DNA of 33,570 nt from Nostocoides australiense Ben110 (GTDB lineage Bacteria; Actinomycetota; Actinomycetes; Actinomycetales; Dermatophilaceae): contig NZ_HG764815.1 in NCBI RefSeq assembly GCF_001050535.1, forward strand, positions 191,398 to 224,967. The letters run 5' to 3'. The notes under the pieces are model-generated. The model made no database searches. It was not told where the DNA came from and saw only the letters and a list, made by a program, of their open reading frames with translations. The position numbers and the translations under genes were made by a program. Shown in pieces: positions 3,044-12,247 of this stretch. Within the stretch, counting starts at the first letter, position 1; every line of letters begins with the position of its first letter.

Positions 3044-5866
3044 TCAAACCAGGCCGTGGCGGGCCCGGCTGGCCTGCTCCTGCTTGCGGAATTGTCCGAA
3101 GCGGGGCAGGAACTTGTCCCAGTCGATGATGTGGGCGTCGATCTCGGGGCCGTCGATGCAGGCGTGCTTGCGCACGGTCTTGCCCTCGATGGTCACCGGG
3201 ACCATGCAGGCGCCGCACATGCCGGTGGCGTCGACCATGATGGAGTTGAGGCTGGCGACGGTGTGCACGTCATACTTCTTGGCGAGATCGGCGACGGCCC
3301 GCATCATCAGCGGCGGGCCGATGGTGACGACCTCGGCGATGCGCCGACCGGTCCCCGCTCGAGCAGCCTCGAGCATGGTCTCCAGCGGCGTGGTGACGAA
3401 ACCCTCGACGCCGAAGGTGCCGTCGTTGGTCGCGTAGACGACCTCCAGCGTGTCCGGGAACTCCCGCTGCAACCCAGCCATCCGCTCGTCCTCGCCCGTC
3501 CAGAACAGCAGTGAGGCAGAACGGAATCCGGCGATCAGCGTGACGTGGTTGCCGCGCCGCAGGTGCTCGCGGGCGATCGGATAGACCGGCGGCAGGCCGA
3601 GCCCGCCGGCGGTGAAGACGACGGTCTCGGTGGCCGGGTCGTAGGCGTTGATCTCGCTCGGCCGGCCCAGCGGGCCGGCGATCCCGGCGAAGGAGTCACC
3701 GACGTTCATCTGGTTCATCTCGATGCTCGAGGTGCCGACGCCCTGGATGACCAGGCAGATCGTGCCCTTCTCGGTGTCCCAGTCCGCGAGGGTGAGCGGG
3801 ATGAGTTCCCCGTCCTCCCACGGCAGCACGCGCACGAATTGACCGGCCTGCGCCGCCTCGGCGATCACCGGCGAGTGCACGATGATCTCCTCGATCCCGT
3901 CGGCCAGGTGCGCCTTGGCGACGATGACCTGGCTCGCCGAGGCGCGCTCGGTGTAGTCCTTGGCCTTGGCCACCATGAGCGGGATCTGGTCGGCGGGGAC
4001 GTCGAGATGCCCGATGATCTCGCGCGCGGCGGCTTGGCCGTCGCCCGCGGCGTTGATCGCCGTTGATCCGCCGCGGGCGGCGTCTCCTCCGGAGTACACC
4101 CCCTCGATGGACGTTTCTTGAGATCCCTTGTGCTCCAGGTCGATCGTGCCCCACTTGGTGGTATGCAGTGTCGGCTCGGAGTCCTTGACGATCGGGTTGG
4201 CAGCGTTGCCGAGTGCCATGATGACCAGATCGGCCTTCATCGTCTCGGTCTGGCCGGTGGGGACCGGGCGCCGGCGGCCGGACGCGTCGGGCTCGCCGAG
4301 TTCCATGACGTCGAGGATGGCGGCGGAGACGAAGCCGGTCTTGTCGTCGCCGAGGAATTCCGTCGGACCACGCAGGACGAGCAGCTTGATGCCCTCCTCC
4401 AGCGCGTGTTCCAACTCCTCGACGCGGGCCGGCATCTCGGACTGGGTGCGGCGATAGACGATCGTCACGTTCCCACCCAGGCGCTTGGAGGTGCGAGCCG
4501 CATCCATGGCCGTGTTGCCGCCGCCGATGATGAGGACTTCCTTGTCCTTGACTTCGGGCAGCGGTGTCTCGTAGTCGTCGCGCAGCCCCTGCATGAGGTT
4601 GACGCGGGTGAGGAACTCGTTGGCGGACATGACATTCAGGTAGTGCTCGCCGGGCACGTCCATGAACCGGGGCAGCCCGGCGCCGGTGCCGACGAAGACC
4701 TTGTAGAAGCCGTTCTCCCGCAACTGTTCGATCGTCGCCGTCTTGCCGACGACGAAGTTGGAGACGAACTTGCCGCCGAGCAGCTTGATCTTGCCGACGA
4801 CGTCGTCGACGAGCTCGTTGGGGAGGCGGAACTCGGGTATGCCGTAGCGCAGCACGCCCCCGAGCGCATGGAAGGCCTCGAACACCGTCACCGGGAAGCC
4901 TTCTGCCGCAAGCAGATAGGCGTTGATCAGCCCCGACGGCCCCGAGCCGATGATGGCCACCGGAGGCTTGCTGGCCACCAGCCACGGGTCGCGCCGATGG
5001 GCGAAGCGTGCCGCATCGCCGTCGGGGTTGACGAGCTTCTCCCGCTCGGGCAGGAACCATTCGAGTTGGCCGATGGCGATCGGCATCTTGTTCTGGATGC
5101 ACACGCCCTGGCACTGCAACTCCTGCGGGCACACGCGGCCGGTGACATCGGGCAGCGGGTTGCACGATTCGATCAGTTCCATCGCCTCGTGGAACTTGCC
5201 GGTCCCGACGAGCTCCAACACCTTGGGGATGTGGATCTTGACCGGGCAGCCGCCCTTGAGGTCCGGCTTGCCGGCGATGTGCACGCCGACCTCACACGGC
5301 TTCTCCTCGCATTGCTTGTCGCGCAACGCTTCCAGCCACACGAAGAGGTCGACCTCGGCCCGGCTGTAGCCGACGTTCATATAGCCGAGATAGCCCTCGT
5401 TGACCAGACCGAAGTCGTGGGAGCGGTCCTCGGGTTCGCGAATGTGCGGCGGGATGGAGTTGCCCGCCGGCCAGTCCACCGACAGGCCCTTGAACATCGG
5501 ATAGCTGTCGGAGAGATGGGCATCGAGCGCCCGGACGAACTTGCGCTTGCCCTTCAGCGGCTGTGCCCACAGGAAGCGCATGATGACCCGGGACGCGTCG
5601 TCCTCGCGCAGCAGCACCTTCCACAATTCCTTGACGAAGTCGGCGCCCAACTCGTCCTGAGAGAACTCCCACATCACGGCGTTCATGCCGTCGTCGATGA
5701 ACATCTGCCGGAAGGTCGCCGGCTCGGCGATCAGCCGCCGCTTGAGCAACTCGATCTGCCGGTTGTAGGACTCCACCGCGTCGCTGTGCTCCAGCGTGGC
5801 GACCTGCGCCTGGGTGGCGGCGAGTTGGTCGCTGGCGGCCAGCCACTCGTGCAGTTCGCCGGTCAT
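3044..5866 (-). CDS. SudA-SudB / NfnAB-like fused flavoprotein (NAD(P)-ferredoxin oxidoreductase type)
   Basis: 940 aa. The ATG start overlaps the stop of the upstream PFOR gene as ATGA, so the two are translationally coupled. Residues 1-185 are an extension with no recognised domain. Residues ~186-280 carry the Cys motifs of glutamate-synthase-small-subunit-type iron-sulfur domains (CEEKPCEVG, GGCPVKIHIP, GRVCPQE..CQGVC). Two dinucleotide-binding motifs follow, IIGSGPSGL near 305 and IIGGGNTAMDAAR, as in GltD/SudA/NfnB. From ~645 there is a ferredoxin-reductase-like SudB/NfnA domain ending in a [2Fe-2S] Cys cluster (MCGACMVPV near 883, KHACIDGPE near 900). Known relatives are two separate subunits that transfer electrons between NADPH, NADH and ferredoxin. 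With PFOR next door, the likely job is moving pyruvate-derived electrons to NAD(P). Whether it bifurcates electrons or reduces polysulfide is not decidable from sequence. Confidence 0.85.
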   Translation of the reverse strand: MTGELHEWLAASDQLAATQAQVATLEHSDAVESYNRQIELLKRRLIAEPATFRQMFIDDGMNAVMWEFSQDELGADFVKELWKVLLREDDASRVIMRFLWAQPLKGKRKFVRALDAHLSDSYPMFKGLSVDWPAGNSIPPHIREPEDRSHDFGLVNEGYLGYMNVGYSRAEVDLFVWLEALRDKQCEEKPCEVGVHIAGKPDLKGGCPVKIHIPKVLELVGTGKFHEAMELIESCNPLPDVTGRVCPQELQCQGVCIQNKMPIAIGQLEWFLPEREKLVNPDGDAARFAHRRDPWLVASKPPVAIIGSGPSGLINAYLLAAEGFPVTVFEAFHALGGVLRYGIPEFRLPNELVDDVVGKIKLLGGKFVSNFVVGKTATIEQLRENGFYKVFVGTGAGLPRFMDVPGEHYLNVMSANEFLTRVNLMQGLRDDYETPLPEVKDKEVLIIGGGNTAMDAARTSKRLGGNVTIVYRRTQSEMPARVEELEHALEEGIKLLVLRGPTEFLGDDKTGFVSAAILDVMELGEPDASGRRRPVPTGQTETMKADLVIMALGNAANPIVKDSEPTLHTTKWGTIDLEHKGSQETSIEGVYSGGDAARGGSTAINAAGDGQAAAREIIGHLDVPADQIPLMVAKAKDYTERASASQVIVAKAHLADGIEEIIVHSPVIAEAAQAGQFVRVLPWEDGELIPLTLADWDTEKGTICLVIQGVGTSSIEMNQMNVGDSFAGIAGPLGRPSEINAYDPATETVVFTAGGLGLPPVYPIAREHLRRGNHVTLIAGFRSASLLFWTGEDERMAGLQREFPDTLEVVYATNDGTFGVEGFVTTPLETMLEAARAGTGRRIAEVVTIGPPLMMRAVADLAKKYDVHTVASLNSIMVDATGMCGACMVPVTIEGKTVRKHACIDGPEIDAHIIDWDKFLPRFGQFRKQEQASRARHGLV

Positions 5867-8800
5867 TGGATGATCTCCGCGTCGCAGGTCTTCTTGACCC
5901 GGTCCATCCGCTTCTCCAGATCCGGCGTGATCTCGACGCTCTCGAGCGCACCGGGGATCATCCGGGCGACCTTCTGCGGCAGCCCGTCGATGATCATCGT
6001 GTGCTGCTCGAACAGCTGCGGCAGCTCCTGATAGCAGGTGCCGCAGTCGTTGCACTTCGGGATGTCGACCTCGTCCAGCCAGATCGGCGCGTCGATCACG
6101 GCGGTTGCAGCCTCGGCCGGCGCGGCCGCCGGGGCTGCGCCACCCGGCATACCTCCGGCGCCGCTCGGGCGCACGGGGATGGCCGAGCCGAGCGAGACCG
6201 GAGCGCGGCTGGAGGAGGCGAGCGAACTCATCGCGTTGGCGATCTCGTCGATCGCGTTCTCGCGCGCCCGCATCGCCTCGTCATACCGCGCCTGCAGATC
6301 CTTCAGGTCGGAGGTGTGCAGTGCCGTCAGCTGGGCCTCGTGGACGCCGGAGAGGTACTGGAGCATCTGCCAGTAGCGGCGCCGGTCCTTCACGAGCGAG
6401 ACGATCGAGGCCGAGCACTGCACCTTGATGAGCTTCTGGTCGTCGTCGGTGGCCCAGATGAAGGGCACCTTGGAGGCCTGTTGCTCCTTGGGCAGTTCGA
6501 TGTATTCGTCCATCGGCACCGCTACGGGTTCGAGGTCGGTCGGCAGCCGGTGGAACTGCTTGCGGAAGCGGGTCTCGCCGAGCGCGAACTCCGCCGGCGT
6601 CAATGCGGCCTTCATCAGCTGGATGTTGCCGTCGTCGTCCTTGTAGGCGAGATCCGTTGTCGTCCAGGTCTTCTCGATGTCGGGGTTGCCCTCCAGGGAG
6701 AACCAGTCGTGCAGGGTCGAGCCGCGCCGTGGGTCGTGCACGAAGACCGGGTTCATCCGGGACTCGACCGCGAGCCGAGCGCGGGCCGCCGAGGCGTCCT
6801 CGCTGATGCCGTGCTCGGATCCACACGGGGTGTAGATGTCGAGCACCGCCGGCGCGTCGGTGTAGCGGAGGAACTCCATCGCATTGGTCAGGAAGTGTCC
6901 CTGGATGGCGGTGCTCGTCGCGCACACGAAGACGTGCGGGTGGAAGGAGGCGAGCAGGCCGAGTTCCTTGCGGGACTCGTGCTTGCCGTCGTGCGCCGAC
7001 CCGAAGCGGGAGAGGTCGGAGTCCTGCGCCGTCAGACTCGCCGTGGAGGCCTGCCCGCCGGTGTTGGAATAGACGCCGGAGTTGAGGACCATGACCTTGA
7101 TCGGGGTGTCGGAGGCGAGGATCCGCGACATCGCGCCGAAGCCGATGTCGTAGGAGGCGCCGTCGCCACCGATGGTCAGCACGGTCGGCATCAGGTCGAG
7201 TTCGGGCTTGGTGAAGTCGCCCCACCCGAGCATCGTCAACTGCTTGTCATGGACGGCCGGGTCATAGCTGTCGCTCAGCTCCAGCTCGGCCAGGCGCATC
7301 GCCTTGACATCCGTAACCAGTTGCGCCGCAGTGCCTTCGAAGATGCCCTTGGCCAGTGGCTGGGCGTCTTGGAAGAGGCTGTTGACCCACGGGTCGGTGT
7401 AGGGGTTGAACGGCATCGTCGAGGCGTAGACGCTGCTGCAGCCGGTGGCGTTGGCGATGATCGTCGACGCCGGGCCGGTGCCGGTCGGGCCGCCCTCGAG
7501 CAGATAGAGCCGGTGCTCGAGCGTCTTGATCGCGCCGTTGATCCGCTCGCGTCGCTCGTCGCTGTCGACGGTCGAGGCCTTGGCGTAGAGCCGGTCGATC
7601 AGGCCGATGAGCTCCTTGGTGTGCGCCTTGCGCCGCCGCTCGCCGAGGGCGTGCGAGGTCGACATGACGAGCCGGATGGCTGTCACCTCACCGCAGCCGC
7701 GGCAGCCGCCGTGCCCGCCGGTGGTCGCCCAGAAGTTGGCGTGGTCGAGCATGAGCCGCTTGATGTCGCCGTCGGGGCTGTCGGAGCCCTCGACGAAGCG
7801 GGTGGGCGTGTTCGGGTTCGCCGTCATGAACGCGAAGCGCTCCTGGAGCGTGGCGAGCACGCCGGCGTCCTGCTCCTGCACGGTCAGGGCCCCCGGTCCG
7901 CAGACCTCGACGCACTCGAGGCAGCCGGTGCACTTCCACGGGTCGATCGTCGCGGCGAACAGGCCGCCGGTGCCCGGCTCGTCCTTCTCGGGTGAGTCGA
8001 AGAACGGGCGAGTGCGCGCCACCGGGTAGGTCGCGAGCTTGGCCACGAGCTTGTCGACCGTATGCTGCATGGTCGGGTCCGTCGCGACGCTCGCCGCGGC
8101 GGTGGCCACGATCTCGTGGAACGGCTTTTCTTCCCTGTGCCGCAACGCTTCTCGGGTGCGTTCGGCGATGCCGAAGATCTCCTTGCGGAGCACATCCTTC
8201 TGTCCGTCGGTGGCGTCGATCTCGGTGACCGCCGTGAGGATCAGGTCGTGTATCTCGTGGACCGTGTTGGGGATCGCCGCGTCCGGGCAGACCAGCGCGC
8301 ACTCCATGCAGCCGGTGCAGATGTCGGGGTTGAACGCCGGCACCTCACGCCGGAAGAGGCCCTTGTCCTTGCCGGCGGCGGTGCCGGGCGGCATGAACAG
8401 ACCGGCACCCGGGAGCACCGGGGCCTCGCCGATGGTGCCCTCGCGGAAGGGTCGCGCCATCAGGTCCTCGTAATAGGTGGGGTCGAACAGGCCGGAGGTC
8501 CGCTCCGCGCGAGCGCTCGGGCACATCGACGCCGACAACGCCACCGTGAGCAGGGGTTTCGGCGCCGGGTGGTCGTCGATCTCGAGGAAGGCCGCGGTGT
8601 CGTAGTCGATCTGCGTCGTTGCCTCGATGCCGTCGAGGATGACGGACATATTGCTCTCGACGACGGTCTCGCCCTTGCGGCCGAACTTCTTCTCGATCTG
8701 CTTGTGGACGCGCTCGAGGATCTGGTCGCGCGAGGCACCGTGGGCGACGCGGTCGACGTGGGCCGCGACCGCACCGATGAACGCGATGCCCATCATGCGA

Positions 8801-10863
8801 GTCTCGAGTTCGGGGATCGGCGCGTGCTTCTTGGCCACCGTGAAGGCGTCGACGACGAAGAAGCGGATCTTCTTGTCACGGATCGTCTTTCGCGCACCCC
8901 GCGGCAGGTCCGCCCAGACCTGCTCGGGGCTGAGGTTGGACTGGAGGATGAACGTGCCACCCTCGGCCAAGCCCTTGAGCGGGTTGGTGTGGATGAACGC
9001 CTTGTGGTCGGGCGCGATGACGACTTCGACGTCCTCCAACTCGGCGTTGGTCGTCAGGATCGGCTCCGGCGAGAGCGTGATGTAGTAGTTCGTCGGCGCG
9101 CCGGACTTCTCCGAGCCGTATTTCGGCGCCGACTTGCTGTGCATCCCGAGGACGCCGGCGAGGATGTCGGTGAGCAGCTTGCCCGTCGCGATCGTGCCGT
9201 AACCGCCGACGGAGTGGAAGCGGATCCGCATCCCTTCTGCCGGAAGGAGATTCGGGTTCGGCTCGGTCTCGAGCGCCATGAGTTCAGTCTCGGGGTATGC
9301 CGCGCGCAGCCGCTCCTGGAGCTGCGCCATGTGCGGGTCGGGGTTCTTGTCGAAGAACTGCGACCCGAGATAGATGAGCGGAGGAAGGGTGCCTGCATCC
9401 AGCGCCTTGAACGCGGCATTCAGGTGGCGCGGCTGCAGGTCGTGTCCACCCAGGCCGAAGATGGCCGTGGTCAACACGGGCGACTGAGCCAGTGCGGGGA
9501 TTCCGTTGTGCCGCTGCGACTCCGCGTTCTGCTGCGCCTTGAACAGGGCCGCCGTGACGAGGGACGTCAGCGCCGTCTGGTCGGAGCGCTCCAGGACGAT
9601 GACGGACTTCTTGCCCGCGAGCGCAGCAACGACCTCGGCCTCGGGGAAGGGCTGCAGCATCTTGACGGAGACCAGGCCGGCCTTGATGCCCTGCTCGCGC
9701 AGGTAGGGCAGGACGGCGCGCACGTCGTCGCAGACCGAGCCGAGCCCGACCATGACGACCTCGGCGTCGTCGGTGTCATAGGTGTGAACCGGGGTGTAGG
9801 TGCGGCCCGTCAGTTCCGAATACTCCGCCATGGCCTGGCGCACCAGCGACGGCACGGCGGAGGCGAAGTGGGTGCGGTGGTCGACGGCGCCGGCCTGGAA
9901 GTCGGGCTGGTTCTGCACCGGCCCGGTCAGGCCGGGGTTGTTGACGTCGACGAGGGAGGGCACCAGCTGGCGCGTCCCCTTCTCCCACGCATTGACCCAT
10001 TGGCGACGCCACGGCCCCTTGAGGTCCTCGGGGACCCAGGCGAGCGTCATACCCACCAGCTCTCCGTCGTTGTCCTTCTCCACCTCGTCCGCCTTGGCGG
10101 CGAGGAAAGCCTGCAGCGCCGCAACATCATCCGCCGGGATGTCCCGGCCGTGGCGACGCAGGAACCCCTCCAACTGGAAGACCCGGCCCTTGGCGCCGAA
10201 CAGCATCTCCTGCGCCAGCGTCGGGCAGGCGATCCGGCCGGCGGGGTCACCCAGATATTCGCGCAGCAACTCCGGCTCCGGCATCAACGCCTCGGAGAGC
10301 ATGTGGCTCGTCGAGAAGCCGTCCATCGCGTTGGCGACGGGGATCAGCGAGAGCGAGGAGGCGCGGTAGGAGATCGCGGCGAGGTCGGCGGCCTCCTGCG
10401 GGTTGGCGCCGAAGAGCACGGTGTAACCGGAGGACAGCAGCGCGTAGATGTCGTCGTGGCCGGCCATGACGTTGAGGGAGTGCTTCGACACCACACGCGC
10501 GGCGACCTGCAGCACGAAGCCGCCGATCTTCTTGCCGACGGTGACGAAGTGGGACTCCATCGCGTAGAGGATGCCCTGGCTGGAGGAGGCGTTCGAGATG
10601 AACGCGCCGCCGGTCAGGGCCGCGCCGAGCGCACCGGACTGGGCGGAGTGCTCGCCCTCGGGCTCGAAGAAGAACGCGTGCTTGCCCCAGACGTTGACAC
10701 CACCCTCGGCGCGCGCGGCTTCATACAGCTCGGAGATCTCGGTCGAGGGGGTGATGGGGTAGCCGATGACCCCGCCGCAGACCTGGCTCATGACGTGAGC
10801 CACGGCGGCGTTGCCGTTGATGACGGTGGGTTGCCCCGGGTACTTCGCTGTGTTCGCGGTCAT
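5863..10863 (-). CDS. nifJ: Pyruvate:ferredoxin (flavodoxin) oxidoreductase, extended form
   Basis: 1666 aa; the usual single-chain enzyme is about 1170-1230. ATG at 10863 follows a good GAAGGA site. Order: N-terminal pyrimidine-binding domain (VINGNAAVAHVMSQVCGGV, GYPITPSTEI), a second transketolase-type domain, the gamma domain near 540-740 (HSVGGYGTIATGKLL), two [4Fe-4S] motifs (CTGCMECALVCP from 849, CTGCLECVEVCGPGAL from 978), and the thiamine-diphosphate domain (HGGCRGCGE, GGDGASYDIGFG near 1230, NSGVYSNTGGQ). It oxidatively decarboxylates pyruvate with CoA to acetyl-CoA, reducing ferredoxin or flavodoxin. The last ~250 residues are extra: a helical stretch, an Ala/Gly/Pro linker near 1550-1590, then Cys1604, 1607, 1610 and 1660, which resemble a single-cluster ferredoxin. 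Oxygen-sensitive in general, so probably used under low oxygen. Another 2-oxoacid substrate is possible. Tyr-Ala pairs here use TAC, unlike most neighbours. Confidence 0.93.
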   Translation of the reverse strand: MTANTAKYPGQPTVINGNAAVAHVMSQVCGGVIGYPITPSTEISELYEAARAEGGVNVWGKHAFFFEPEGEHSAQSGALGAALTGGAFISNASSSQGILYAMESHFVTVGKKIGGFVLQVAARVVSKHSLNVMAGHDDIYALLSSGYTVLFGANPQEAADLAAISYRASSLSLIPVANAMDGFSTSHMLSEALMPEPELLREYLGDPAGRIACPTLAQEMLFGAKGRVFQLEGFLRRHGRDIPADDVAALQAFLAAKADEVEKDNDGELVGMTLAWVPEDLKGPWRRQWVNAWEKGTRQLVPSLVDVNNPGLTGPVQNQPDFQAGAVDHRTHFASAVPSLVRQAMAEYSELTGRTYTPVHTYDTDDAEVVMVGLGSVCDDVRAVLPYLREQGIKAGLVSVKMLQPFPEAEVVAALAGKKSVIVLERSDQTALTSLVTAALFKAQQNAESQRHNGIPALAQSPVLTTAIFGLGGHDLQPRHLNAAFKALDAGTLPPLIYLGSQFFDKNPDPHMAQLQERLRAAYPETELMALETEPNPNLLPAEGMRIRFHSVGGYGTIATGKLLTDILAGVLGMHSKSAPKYGSEKSGAPTNYYITLSPEPILTTNAELEDVEVVIAPDHKAFIHTNPLKGLAEGGTFILQSNLSPEQVWADLPRGARKTIRDKKIRFFVVDAFTVAKKHAPIPELETRMMGIAFIGAVAAHVDRVAHGASRDQILERVHKQIEKKFGRKGETVVESNMSVILDGIEATTQIDYDTAAFLEIDDHPAPKPLLTVALSASMCPSARAERTSGLFDPTYYEDLMARPFREGTIGEAPVLPGAGLFMPPGTAAGKDKGLFRREVPAFNPDICTGCMECALVCPDAAIPNTVHEIHDLILTAVTEIDATDGQKDVLRKEIFGIAERTREALRHREEKPFHEIVATAAASVATDPTMQHTVDKLVAKLATYPVARTRPFFDSPEKDEPGTGGLFAATIDPWKCTGCLECVEVCGPGALTVQEQDAGVLATLQERFAFMTANPNTPTRFVEGSDSPDGDIKRLMLDHANFWATTGGHGGCRGCGEVTAIRLVMSTSHALGERRRKAHTKELIGLIDRLYAKASTVDSDERRERINGAIKTLEHRLYLLEGGPTGTGPASTIIANATGCSSVYASTMPFNPYTDPWVNSLFQDAQPLAKGIFEGTAAQLVTDVKAMRLAELELSDSYDPAVHDKQLTMLGWGDFTKPELDLMPTVLTIGGDGASYDIGFGAMSRILASDTPIKVMVLNSGVYSNTGGQASTASLTAQDSDLSRFGSAHDGKHESRKELGLLASFHPHVFVCATSTAIQGHFLTNAMEFLRYTDAPAVLDIYTPCGSEHGISEDASAARARLAVESRMNPVFVHDPRRGSTLHDWFSLEGNPDIEKTWTTTDLAYKDDDGNIQLMKAALTPAEFALGETRFRKQFHRLPTDLEPVAVPMDEYIELPKEQQASKVPFIWATDDDQKLIKVQCSASIVSLVKDRRRYWQMLQYLSGVHEAQLTALHTSDLKDLQARYDEAMRARENAIDEIANAMSSLASSSRAPVSLGSAIPVRPSGAGGMPGGAAPAAAPAEAATAVIDAPIWLDEVDIPKCNDCGTCYQELPQLFEQHTMIIDGLPQKVARMIPGALESVEITPDLEKRMDRVKKTCDAEIIQ

Positions 10864-10876
10864 TTCGTTTCCTTCA

Positions 10877-10921
10877 CCGGATTGCCACATCCGGTCTCGT
10901 CGGCCGCGCGCCACCGCGGCC
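10877..10921 (-). promoter_or_regulatory. Paired hairpins in the leader between small ORF and nifJ
   Basis: Two perfect inverted repeats occupy the 75-base gap between the small ORF and nifJ. One has 7-bp arms, GGCCGCG 10902-10908 and CGCGGCC 10915-10921. The other has 6-bp arms, CCGGAT 10877-10882 and ATCCGG 10889-10894, and ends just before the nifJ ribosome site. They could attenuate transcription, mark an RNA processing site, or protect the nifJ mRNA end. No T tract is present. Confidence 0.45.
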
Positions 10922-10938
10922 CTGTCGCGGTTGGAGTC

Positions 10939-11082
10939 CTAGGTGTCGGACTCCTCGGGGTCGACATGCGGGAAGAATCCCGACGTGCCAAGTTCGGGTG
11001 ATTCAAAGAGGTCCGTGGCGAAGTCCTCCGGCGGGGGCTGGTCGAGGACGTCCGATTCCGCTCGGGTCATCACGTCGCTCAT
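10939..11082 (-). CDS. Small acidic protein upstream of nifJ
   Basis: 47 aa, ATG at 11082 to TAG at 10939. A strong GGAGG ribosome site sits 7 bases before the ATG, and most third codon positions are G or C, both in favour of a real gene. The protein begins MSDVMTRAESDVLDQ and ends HVDPEESDT. It has at least fourteen Asp/Glu against one Arg, no Cys, no signal peptide and no membrane segment. No family is recognised. It is the first gene of the PFOR operon, 75 bases before nifJ, with two hairpins in between. It could be a small partner or assembly protein for the oxidoreductase, or a translated leader; there is no run of a single amino acid as in classic attenuator peptides. Confidence 0.6.
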   Translation of the reverse strand: MSDVMTRAESDVLDQPPPEDFATDLFESPELGTSGFFPHVDPEESDT

Positions 11083-11147
11083 CGCCTGCCTCCAGTCGTA
11101 GGTGACTCATCGGCAGCGGGCGGCAAACCTCGACCCCTTGCGCGGCG

Positions 11148-11159
11148 CACCACGTGGTG
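11148..11159. promoter_or_regulatory. 12-bp perfect palindrome between divergent genes
   Basis: CACCACGTGGTG is a perfect palindrome in the 202-base gap between the small ORF/nifJ operon (minus) and the toroid protein gene (plus). Its position fits an operator for a dimeric regulator of either promoter. The regulator cannot be named. Confidence 0.35.
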
Positions 11160-11271
11160 GCCGACGCTTGTCCTCGCTGTGGACCTTTTCATCAAGTCAC
11201 TTCGCGCGGAGGAACGCAAGATGGAACGGAGTGGATTACGCCACACCGCGACGGGTGTCGGTCCTCGTTCC

Positions 11272-11277
11272 TAGAGT
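11272..11277 (+). promoter_or_regulatory. -10 box of a leaderless promoter
   Basis: TAGAGT lies 7 bases before the ATG at 11285, and no ribosome site precedes the ATG. This is the usual actinobacterial leaderless arrangement. No convincing -35 box is seen. Confidence 0.45.
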
Positions 11278-11284
11278 CGCGGGT

Positions 11285-12247
11285 ATGACGTCGCTCCAGT
11301 TCTCGTCCGATGCCCTCGACCGCTCGCGCGCCTGGCTGGCTGCTCATGGCCGGCCTCTCGAGCGGGTGCGGCTCGCGCAGGTGCTCGGCACGGCCACCCC
11401 CGGTCAAGTCACCGATGCCGTGTCCGCCTATGCCAACTCCGACGGCGGGGTCGGCAACGCACTCGAGTCCGACTGCCGCGCACCGGAATCCAGTGCCCTC
11501 GGTGCGCTGACGGCGCTCGACATCCTCCGGGCACACCGCGTGCCGGGTGACCATCCGCTGGTGGGTCAGGTGTGCCGATGGCTCGTCGAGAGTGTCGAGT
11601 CCGATAGGCAAGGGCGCTTGGTATGGCCGTTCCTTCCCCCGTCGGCCCAGGCCAGTCCGCATGCGCCCTGGTGGGACCAGAGCGAGCCGGGTCAGCTCGC
11701 CGAGACGTTTGCCGGGTATGCCGCGAACCCGGGTGTCGCGTTGACCGCTCACCTGTGGCGGCGCGAGGTGGCTGCGCCGGGGAGCGTGCCTGCCGAGATG
11801 CTGGCCCAACTCACCCAGCAGGTGCGCGATGTGGCTGCTGACGGTGTCTCGGCGGAGGAAGTGAACGCCCACGATGCGTTGGCGCACTTCGCCGGAGAAG
11901 CCGCCACGCCCGCGGACGCGCGGGAGGCGGTCACGGCATACCTCCGTCGGGTGCTTCCGGAGCGGGTGATGGCGACGGAGGCCGACTACGCGACATACGG
12001 GATCCACCCGCTGTGGATCGCGCCCACGCCGGCGCACCCGCTCGCCGCCGCCCTGGCCGACACGCTGCCGATGGCTCTCGACCGGACGATCGCGAGCCAG
12101 CAGCCGGACGGCTCGTGGGCGACCTTCTGGGACTGGGGTGGCTGGCACCCGGATGTCTGGCCACAGGCCGAGCAGGAATGGCGCGGTTCGCTGATCGTCC
12201 GCAATATCGCCGCCCTGCTGGCTCATGGCCGGGTGGTTCGCCCGTAG
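11285..12247 (+). CDS. Terpenoid-cyclase/prenyltransferase-like toroid protein, function unknown
   Basis: 320 aa. The ATG at 11285 is preferred over an in-frame upstream start at 11102 because a TAGAGT box lies 7 bases before it and the extra 61 codons are low-quality basic sequence. The protein looks like an alpha-alpha toroid: repeated helices (SSALGALTALDILRAH, VCRWLVESVE) and a QW-type motif near the end (QQPDGSWATFWDWGGW), with Trp-rich loops (WPFLPP, PWWDQ). Squalene cyclases and protein prenyltransferases share this fold, but the cyclase DxDD acid motif is not visible, so catalysis of that kind is doubtful. No signal peptide or membrane segment is seen. It is divergent from the PFOR operon and 60 bases ahead of gpsA, possibly in its transcript. 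Confidence 0.75.
   Translation: MTSLQFSSDALDRSRAWLAAHGRPLERVRLAQVLGTATPGQVTDAVSAYANSDGGVGNALESDCRAPESSALGALTALDILRAHRVPGDHPLVGQVCRWLVESVESDRQGRLVWPFLPPSAQASPHAPWWDQSEPGQLAETFAGYAANPGVALTAHLWRREVAAPGSVPAEMLAQLTQQVRDVAADGVSAEEVNAHDALAHFAGEAATPADAREAVTAYLRRVLPERVMATEADYATYGIHPLWIAPTPAHPLAAALADTLPMALDRTIASQQPDGSWATFWDWGGWHPDVWPQAEQEWRGSLIVRNIAALLAHGRVVRP

Follow-up and report, generated by a model that had tools for sequence, protein, structure and literature searches.

A conserved pair of genes for a ferredoxin-tailed PFOR-like protein and a one-chain Nfn, probably a pyruvate-to-NADP+ redox module

The stretch of Nostocoides australiense Ben110 DNA analysed here (the window, 33,570 nucleotides) carries on its minus strand the gene of a long protein resembling pyruvate:ferredoxin oxidoreductase (PFOR) and, overlapping its end, that of a fused Nfn. 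The two genes are conserved as a pair, and we think it probable that they form a two-gene redox module in which electrons pass from pyruvate through a tethered ferredoxin to Nfn and on to NADP+, with or without NADH confurcation. The original prediction had seen a direct pyruvate-to-NAD(P)H path in this pair, and such a route is still the best reading. Three features came to light beyond that prediction, namely a C-terminal ferredoxin domain on PFOR, inserts within PFOR and an altered cluster ligand in Nfn (Table 1).

Table 1 Features of the gene pair, in positions of the window
Feature	Position	Strand	Basis or remark
Fused Nfn P0001, 940 aa, NF009415/PRK12779, 'Pattern C'	3044..5866	-	Profile and structure-sequence matches; PMC6405883
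NfnA/NfnS-like part: FAD, NAD(H) site, [2Fe-2S] D879, C884, C887, C903	3065..3937	-	VIA Z 35.5 to 5jca_S
NfnB/NfnL-like part: two cluster sites, bifurcating-type FAD, NADP(H) site	3986..5344	-	5jca_L match; VIA Z 32.4 to 5jfc_L
Asp183 for first Cys of ferredoxin-facing cluster	5318..5320	-	RDxQCxxxPC vs RCxxCxxxPC
N-terminal helical extension of Nfn, about residues 1-130, no assigned family	5477..5866	-	Domain search and model
ATGA stop/start overlap of PFOR and fused Nfn genes	5863..5866	-	Common to both frames; 4-nt overlap in 42/78 non-duplicate loci
Long PFOR-like protein P0002, 1666 aa	5863..10863	-	Domain, profile and structure-sequence matches; present in 78 loci
C-terminal single-cluster ferredoxin domain: C1604, C1607, C1610, C1660	5866..6078	-	Fer4_15; pLDDT 80-87
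Ala/Pro-rich low-confidence linker	6091..6225	-	pLDDT about 30, model residues 1080-1124
Beta/TPP domain; proximal-cluster Cys C1054, C1057, C1142, C1347	6664..7716	-	Structure match to PFOR and PorB-type chains
Two [4Fe-4S] motifs C849/852/855/859 and C978/981/984/988, about 120 residues apart; insert length 98-102	7900..8319	-
PFOR domain I, TPP/pyruvate side; T38, E71, R123	10255..10863	-	Pfam POR_N; alignment to 1b0p/6cin
47-aa open frame, 75 nt upstream of PFOR; may not belong	10939..11082	-	C-terminal half conserved only in nearest relatives

Both reading frames were open and complete, that of the PFOR-like gene from an ATG at 10863, with GAAGGAAACGAAATG just before it, to a stop at 5863, and that of the fused Nfn gene from an ATG at 5866 to a stop at 3044; the coordinates, sizes and ATGA overlap with which a PFOR and a fused Sud/Nfn enzyme had been predicted were all correct on this check. 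Scanning contigs with the fused Nfn yielded 126 loci, 80 of which were kept and to which the window was added to give 81. The long PFOR gene lay directly upstream in 78 of the 81, spread over the Actinomycetota and the Alpha-, Beta- and Gammaproteobacteria, and the remaining three (L105, L112 and L116) were contig ends. The four-nucleotide overlap, found at 42 of these 78 loci (47/84 with the partly duplicate loci L036-L044 included), is not due to chance because it is conserved across phyla, and the equal production predicted from it is plausible as translational coupling of PFOR and Nfn. Chance overlap and a neighbourhood of unrelated genes were both ruled out by the conserved pairing among the scanned loci. 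No other gene was conserved in place within 10 kb of the pair.

Searches anchored on PFOR gave the same picture. Seven of 186 genomes in the window's family encoded the long PFOR and all seven also encoded Nfn, so that the pair, which the prediction had proposed to look for in other actinobacteria, is present there but rare. In the Propionivibrio family PFOR occurred in 12 of 200 genomes; Nfn was listed in 11 of them, and in the twelfth (G537) it begins right behind PFOR and runs off the contig, while no Nfn without PFOR was found among the other 188 genomes of that family. PFOR and Nfn distances were closely correlated (Mantel r 0.93, with 0 of 2000 permutations as high), a correlation to which shared host ancestry contributes. 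The predicted coupling of PFOR to Nfn is thus strongly supported by the conservation of the gene pairing in both search directions together with correlated divergence.

An exception was provided by genus g202 of the window's family, three genomes of which contained Nfn, two of the copies being strongly diverged, and no long PFOR anywhere; the g202 Nfn can therefore work, or decay, without long PFOR. At two loci (L126, 9740-12268; L127, 7566-10109), in a genome setting without long PFOR, a diverged fused Nfn of 842-847 residues and about 40% identity adjoined genes for FG-GAP repeat proteins and, at L126, also a cytidine-deaminase-like gene. These proteins kept the cofactor ligand residues, and it is therefore possible that they do a different job. 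A closer relative (L125, 10110-12908; about 70% identity) stood alone without long PFOR in a genome of the same family rated 100% complete. Conservation of an operon is in itself no proof of contact, and we keep as a tentative alternative that PFOR and Nfn are co-expressed without forming a complex, a free ferredoxin linking both of them and also other acceptors such as hydrogenase or other reductases. The orphan Nfn of g202 and the predicted flexibility of the ferredoxin linker fit this arrangement, but the invariant pairing across phyla, the tethered ferredoxin and the unique N-terminal extension of Nfn suggest a private route.

Around the pair, the end of the 47-residue frame upstream of PFOR, FESPELGTSGFFPHVDP, recurred before the PFOR gene of Piscicoccus and of a few more close relatives and was not found in other groups. 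At the other side, the fused Nfn gene converges with a transglutaminase-like gene ending at 2894. The gap between their ends contains a near-perfect hairpin of more than 20 bp (2915-2969; the stretch has -55 kcal/mol, z -8.5), where transcription of both genes probably ends, with no run of T. A sigma-70 promoter scan gave no match, a result that says little for a GC-rich actinobacterium.

The PFOR-like protein aligned by sequence to the PFOR structures of Moorella (1.7e-83) and Desulfovibrio (1.2e-70). Against TIGR02176 it scored 397.7 bits in scattered pieces only, below the curated cut-off of 911.35; since it falls far below this cut-off yet aligns to PFOR structures, it is best described as a divergent PFOR. 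Residues T38, E71 and R123 were identical in 61/61 homologues and align with T31, E64 and R114 of D. africanus, of which the Thr and Arg are the pyruvate contacts and the Glu the TPP residue, so that the TPP glutamate and the pyruvate-contact pair of PFOR are all present. The eight cysteines of the two [4Fe-4S] motifs were invariant in the 61 homologues, as were all twelve that make up the three [4Fe-4S] clusters characteristic of PFOR. In known homodimeric NifJ-type PFORs (Desulfovibrio africanus, Moorella thermoacetica; TIGR02176) the domain order, the TPP/pyruvate residues and the twelve cluster cysteines are the same.

Those enzymes, of about 1170-1230 residues, differ in lacking both a tethered ferredoxin and inserts of about 100, 60 and 60 residues. 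In the protein of the window and its homologues the inserts are of nearly constant length: domain I is followed by one of about 100 residues, the NATGC motif is preceded by one of about 60, and the spacing of the two dicluster motifs exceeds the usual by about 60. The C-terminal domain matched Pfam Fer4_15 with 31.9 bits (cut-off 22.4), and its four cysteines, C1604, C1607, C1610 and C1660, were again invariant in 61 homologues, bringing the invariant cluster cysteines to 16. In the structural model (residues 468-1666), which has a pLDDT of only 70 and matches Moorella PFOR with Z 28.6, the ferredoxin domain is preceded by a long helix and an Ala/Pro-rich linker of about 45 residues predicted with low confidence. 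Our reading of the long protein is a PFOR that carries a ferredoxin of its own on a tether. That its substrate is a 2-oxoacid other than pyruvate, such as 2-oxobutyrate or a branched-chain or aromatic 2-oxoacid, seems very unlikely: the score below the TIGR02176 cut-off, the low identity to pyruvate enzymes and the 100-residue insert after domain I would suit such a substrate, but both pyruvate-contact residues and the TPP glutamate are invariant and the best structural matches are PFORs.

Over residues 4-939 the fused Nfn matched NF009415/PRK12779 with 1672.7 bits, above the curated cut-off (1519) along its full length. This family's name, 'glutamate synthase subunit beta/2-polyprenylphenol hydroxylase', labels homology, and a role as the small subunit of glutamate synthase was rejected, there being no large subunit as a conserved neighbour and the C-terminal half being NfnA-like. 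Sequence matches to the PDB placed the NfnB part first (residues 175-621, Pyrococcus NfnL, 5jca_L, 4.9e-106) and the NfnA part last (residues 648-933, Pyrococcus NfnS, 5jca_S, 7.5e-66), with the N-terminal 130 or so residues in neither; that extension had no Pfam match and no sequence relative in the PDB. An AlphaFold2 model (pLDDT 82) reproduced both folds, superposing on NfnL (5jfc_L) with Z 32.4 over 445 aligned residues (rmsd 2.5) and on NfnS (5jca_S) with Z 35.5 over 269 (rmsd 1.7). The fusion is itself already known and not new: under the name 'Pattern C' Nfn, Liang et al. 2019 (PMC6405883) report chains of this order, NfnB then NfnA, that carry about 200 additional residues, from Actinobacteria, Alpha- and Gammaproteobacteria, call them uncharacterised and single them out as needing study. 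In the Nfn tree of Poudel et al. (PMC6085437) a Mobiluncus member takes the basal position.

We next considered the cofactor sites of Nfn. The proximal [4Fe-4S] ligands, assigned by alignment to NfnL, were C207, C246, C252 and E269, the three cysteines and one glutamate of bifurcating Nfn, and were invariant in 83 homologues. Equally invariant in the 83 were the [2Fe-2S] ligands D879, C884, C887 and C903; the NfnA motif DGTGMCGxC...CV with its Asp ligand reads D879-ATGMCGAC...C903 here, with a G to A change inside it. The outer cluster departed from this pattern. In place of the four cysteines of the distal [4Fe-4S] cluster of bifurcating Nfn, the first position was D183, and aspartate stood there in 83/83 aligned homologues and 90/90 loci, against cysteine in 29/29 ordinary GltA/NfnB-type controls. 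From the ungapped match, Asp183 is a predicted cluster ligand. The flavin-strand motif ERxPxT of NfnA reads ELIPLT, keeping the T and exchanging the R for L, and this change together with the outer-cluster Asp may mean that redox tuning differs from that of characterised Nfn.

Nfn-type sequences can be non-bifurcating and sequence alone cannot tell function, as stated in PMC6405883. The fused Nfn could thus be a plain, non-bifurcating ferredoxin:NAD(P)+ reductase and the pair a simple pyruvate:NAD(P)+ oxidoreductase, for which the lost R of ERxPxT, the Asp in the outer cluster and P. furiosus Nfn2, which appears non-bifurcating despite similar sequence (PMC5861303), all speak. We give this reading a minority chance; against it stands the invariance of both flavin parts, of the Asp/3-Cys [2Fe-2S] site and of the Glu-ligated proximal cluster that bifurcating Nfn typically has.

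Put together as the favoured module, PFOR would convert pyruvate to acetyl-CoA and CO2, and the electrons would move one by one across its three internal [4Fe-4S] clusters to the fourth cluster, in the C-terminal tethered ferredoxin. In Nfn, the distal NfnB cluster is the proposed docking site of ferredoxin (PMC5861303), and the one-chain Nfn would accept electrons at its Asp-ligated outer cluster and pass them to the NfnB FAD, where NADP+ would probably be the nucleotide reduced. With confurcation as in known Nfn, NADH would supply extra electrons by way of the FAD of NfnA and its [2Fe-2S] cluster. The net reaction would be pyruvate + CoA + NADP+ (with or without NADH) to acetyl-CoA + CO2 + NADPH, with free ferredoxin as no obligatory carrier. 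Possibly, though we hold this more specific form with some doubt, the pair is a channelled pyruvate:NAD(P)+ oxidoreductase in which the tethered ferredoxin docks on the Asp-ligated cluster of a dedicated, bifurcating one-chain Nfn.

The direction of flow could also be the opposite. NfnAB is reversible and runs both ways (PMC5861303), and the pair might act as a pyruvate synthase, NADPH bifurcating to NAD+ and the tethered ferredoxin while acetyl-CoA is carboxylated during anaerobic or phototrophic acetate assimilation. Many carriers are by name phototrophs or storage-polymer formers (Rhodopseudomonas, Rhodopila, Blastochloris, Accumulibacter), in keeping with such a role. Several others, Propionivibrio dicarboxylicus and Roseiarcus fermentans, are described fermenters, however, and no carbon-assimilation genes were conserved nearby (10 kb), and we consider this direction unlikely.

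In a midpoint-rooted tree all copies from Actinomycetes formed one clade among betaproteobacterial copies, which suggests that the module moved between phyla as one unit. The nearest named carriers were Dermatophilaceae, Piscicoccus and Kineosphaera; no full-length match was found in the plasmid collection. The window's genus is represented by three further genomes, and both genes were absent from all of them. The pair had been called unusual for an actinobacterium, and the rarity stands, with the full-length fused Nfn in only the window's genome among a sample of 296 Actinomycetota (1/296) and in 10/186 genomes of its family; fused Nfn in actinobacteria is, however, already on record in PMC6085437 and PMC6405883.

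The window's genome (4.26 Mb, a single contig) keeps aceE, the E1 component of pyruvate dehydrogenase, and replacement of pyruvate dehydrogenase by PFOR was accordingly rejected. Because aceE and further 2-oxoacid oxidoreductase clusters are present, the module is an addition and no substitute for that enzyme. One such cluster (L130, genome 755001-774000) holds a second PFOR of the standard 1193-residue NifJ type at 5562-11845, with a GltD-like NAD(P)-binding protein (PRK12771) directly before it and a dihydroorotate-dehydrogenase-like (PyrD-like) protein after it, and adjoins acyl-CoA dehydrogenase and carboxyltransferase-like genes. Another (L131, genome 36001-56000, about 4490-9815) encodes separate NfnA and NfnB followed by KorA/KorB-type 2-oxoacid:acceptor oxidoreductase subunits. 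One actinobacterial genome thereby carries three 2-oxoacid oxidoreductase/NADPH-type clusters.

PFOR and the fused Nfn are both of known kinds, and it is their conserved pairing with these modifications that is apparently undescribed. We found no description of the constant pairing, the ferredoxin-tailed PFOR or the Asp-for-Cys change in the open-access literature, our coverage of which was incomplete, and no correspondence could be established between the long PFOR gene and the porAB genes reported for the related Ca. Phosphoribacter. Two-subunit NfnAB/NfnSL of Thermotoga, Pyrococcus and Clostridium kluyveri shares the FAD domains, the Glu-ligated proximal cluster, the Asp/3-Cys [2Fe-2S] site and the folds, and differs in its separate subunits, its free ferredoxin and its four-Cys distal cluster. 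Euglena pyruvate:NADP+ oxidoreductase, a PFOR fused to a flavodoxin/cytochrome-P450-reductase type domain, catalyses the same overall reaction as proposed here, likewise with PFOR joined to an NADP-reducing module, but has no ferredoxin and no separate Nfn. 'Pattern C' Nfn of the Mobiluncus curtisii ADI67453 type (NF009415/PRK12779), compared here through its description in passages of PMC6405883, is the same single chain with NfnB first and NfnA last and is, like the protein of the window, about 200 residues longer than other fused Nfn; relative to that account, the PFOR pairing, the Asp-for-Cys change and the Betaproteobacteria are added here.

With this pairing, the uncharacterised 'Pattern C' Nfn gains a constant partner and therefore a testable function. 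The module may represent a pyruvate-to-NADPH route in facultative bacteria, including wastewater-treatment groups and phototrophs, and it offers a natural model for electron transfer through a tethered ferredoxin, with a single-residue cluster variant. If the channelled reading is true, facultative bacteria would be able to run, and reverse, ferredoxin-level pyruvate chemistry with no low-potential electrons lost to free ferredoxin.
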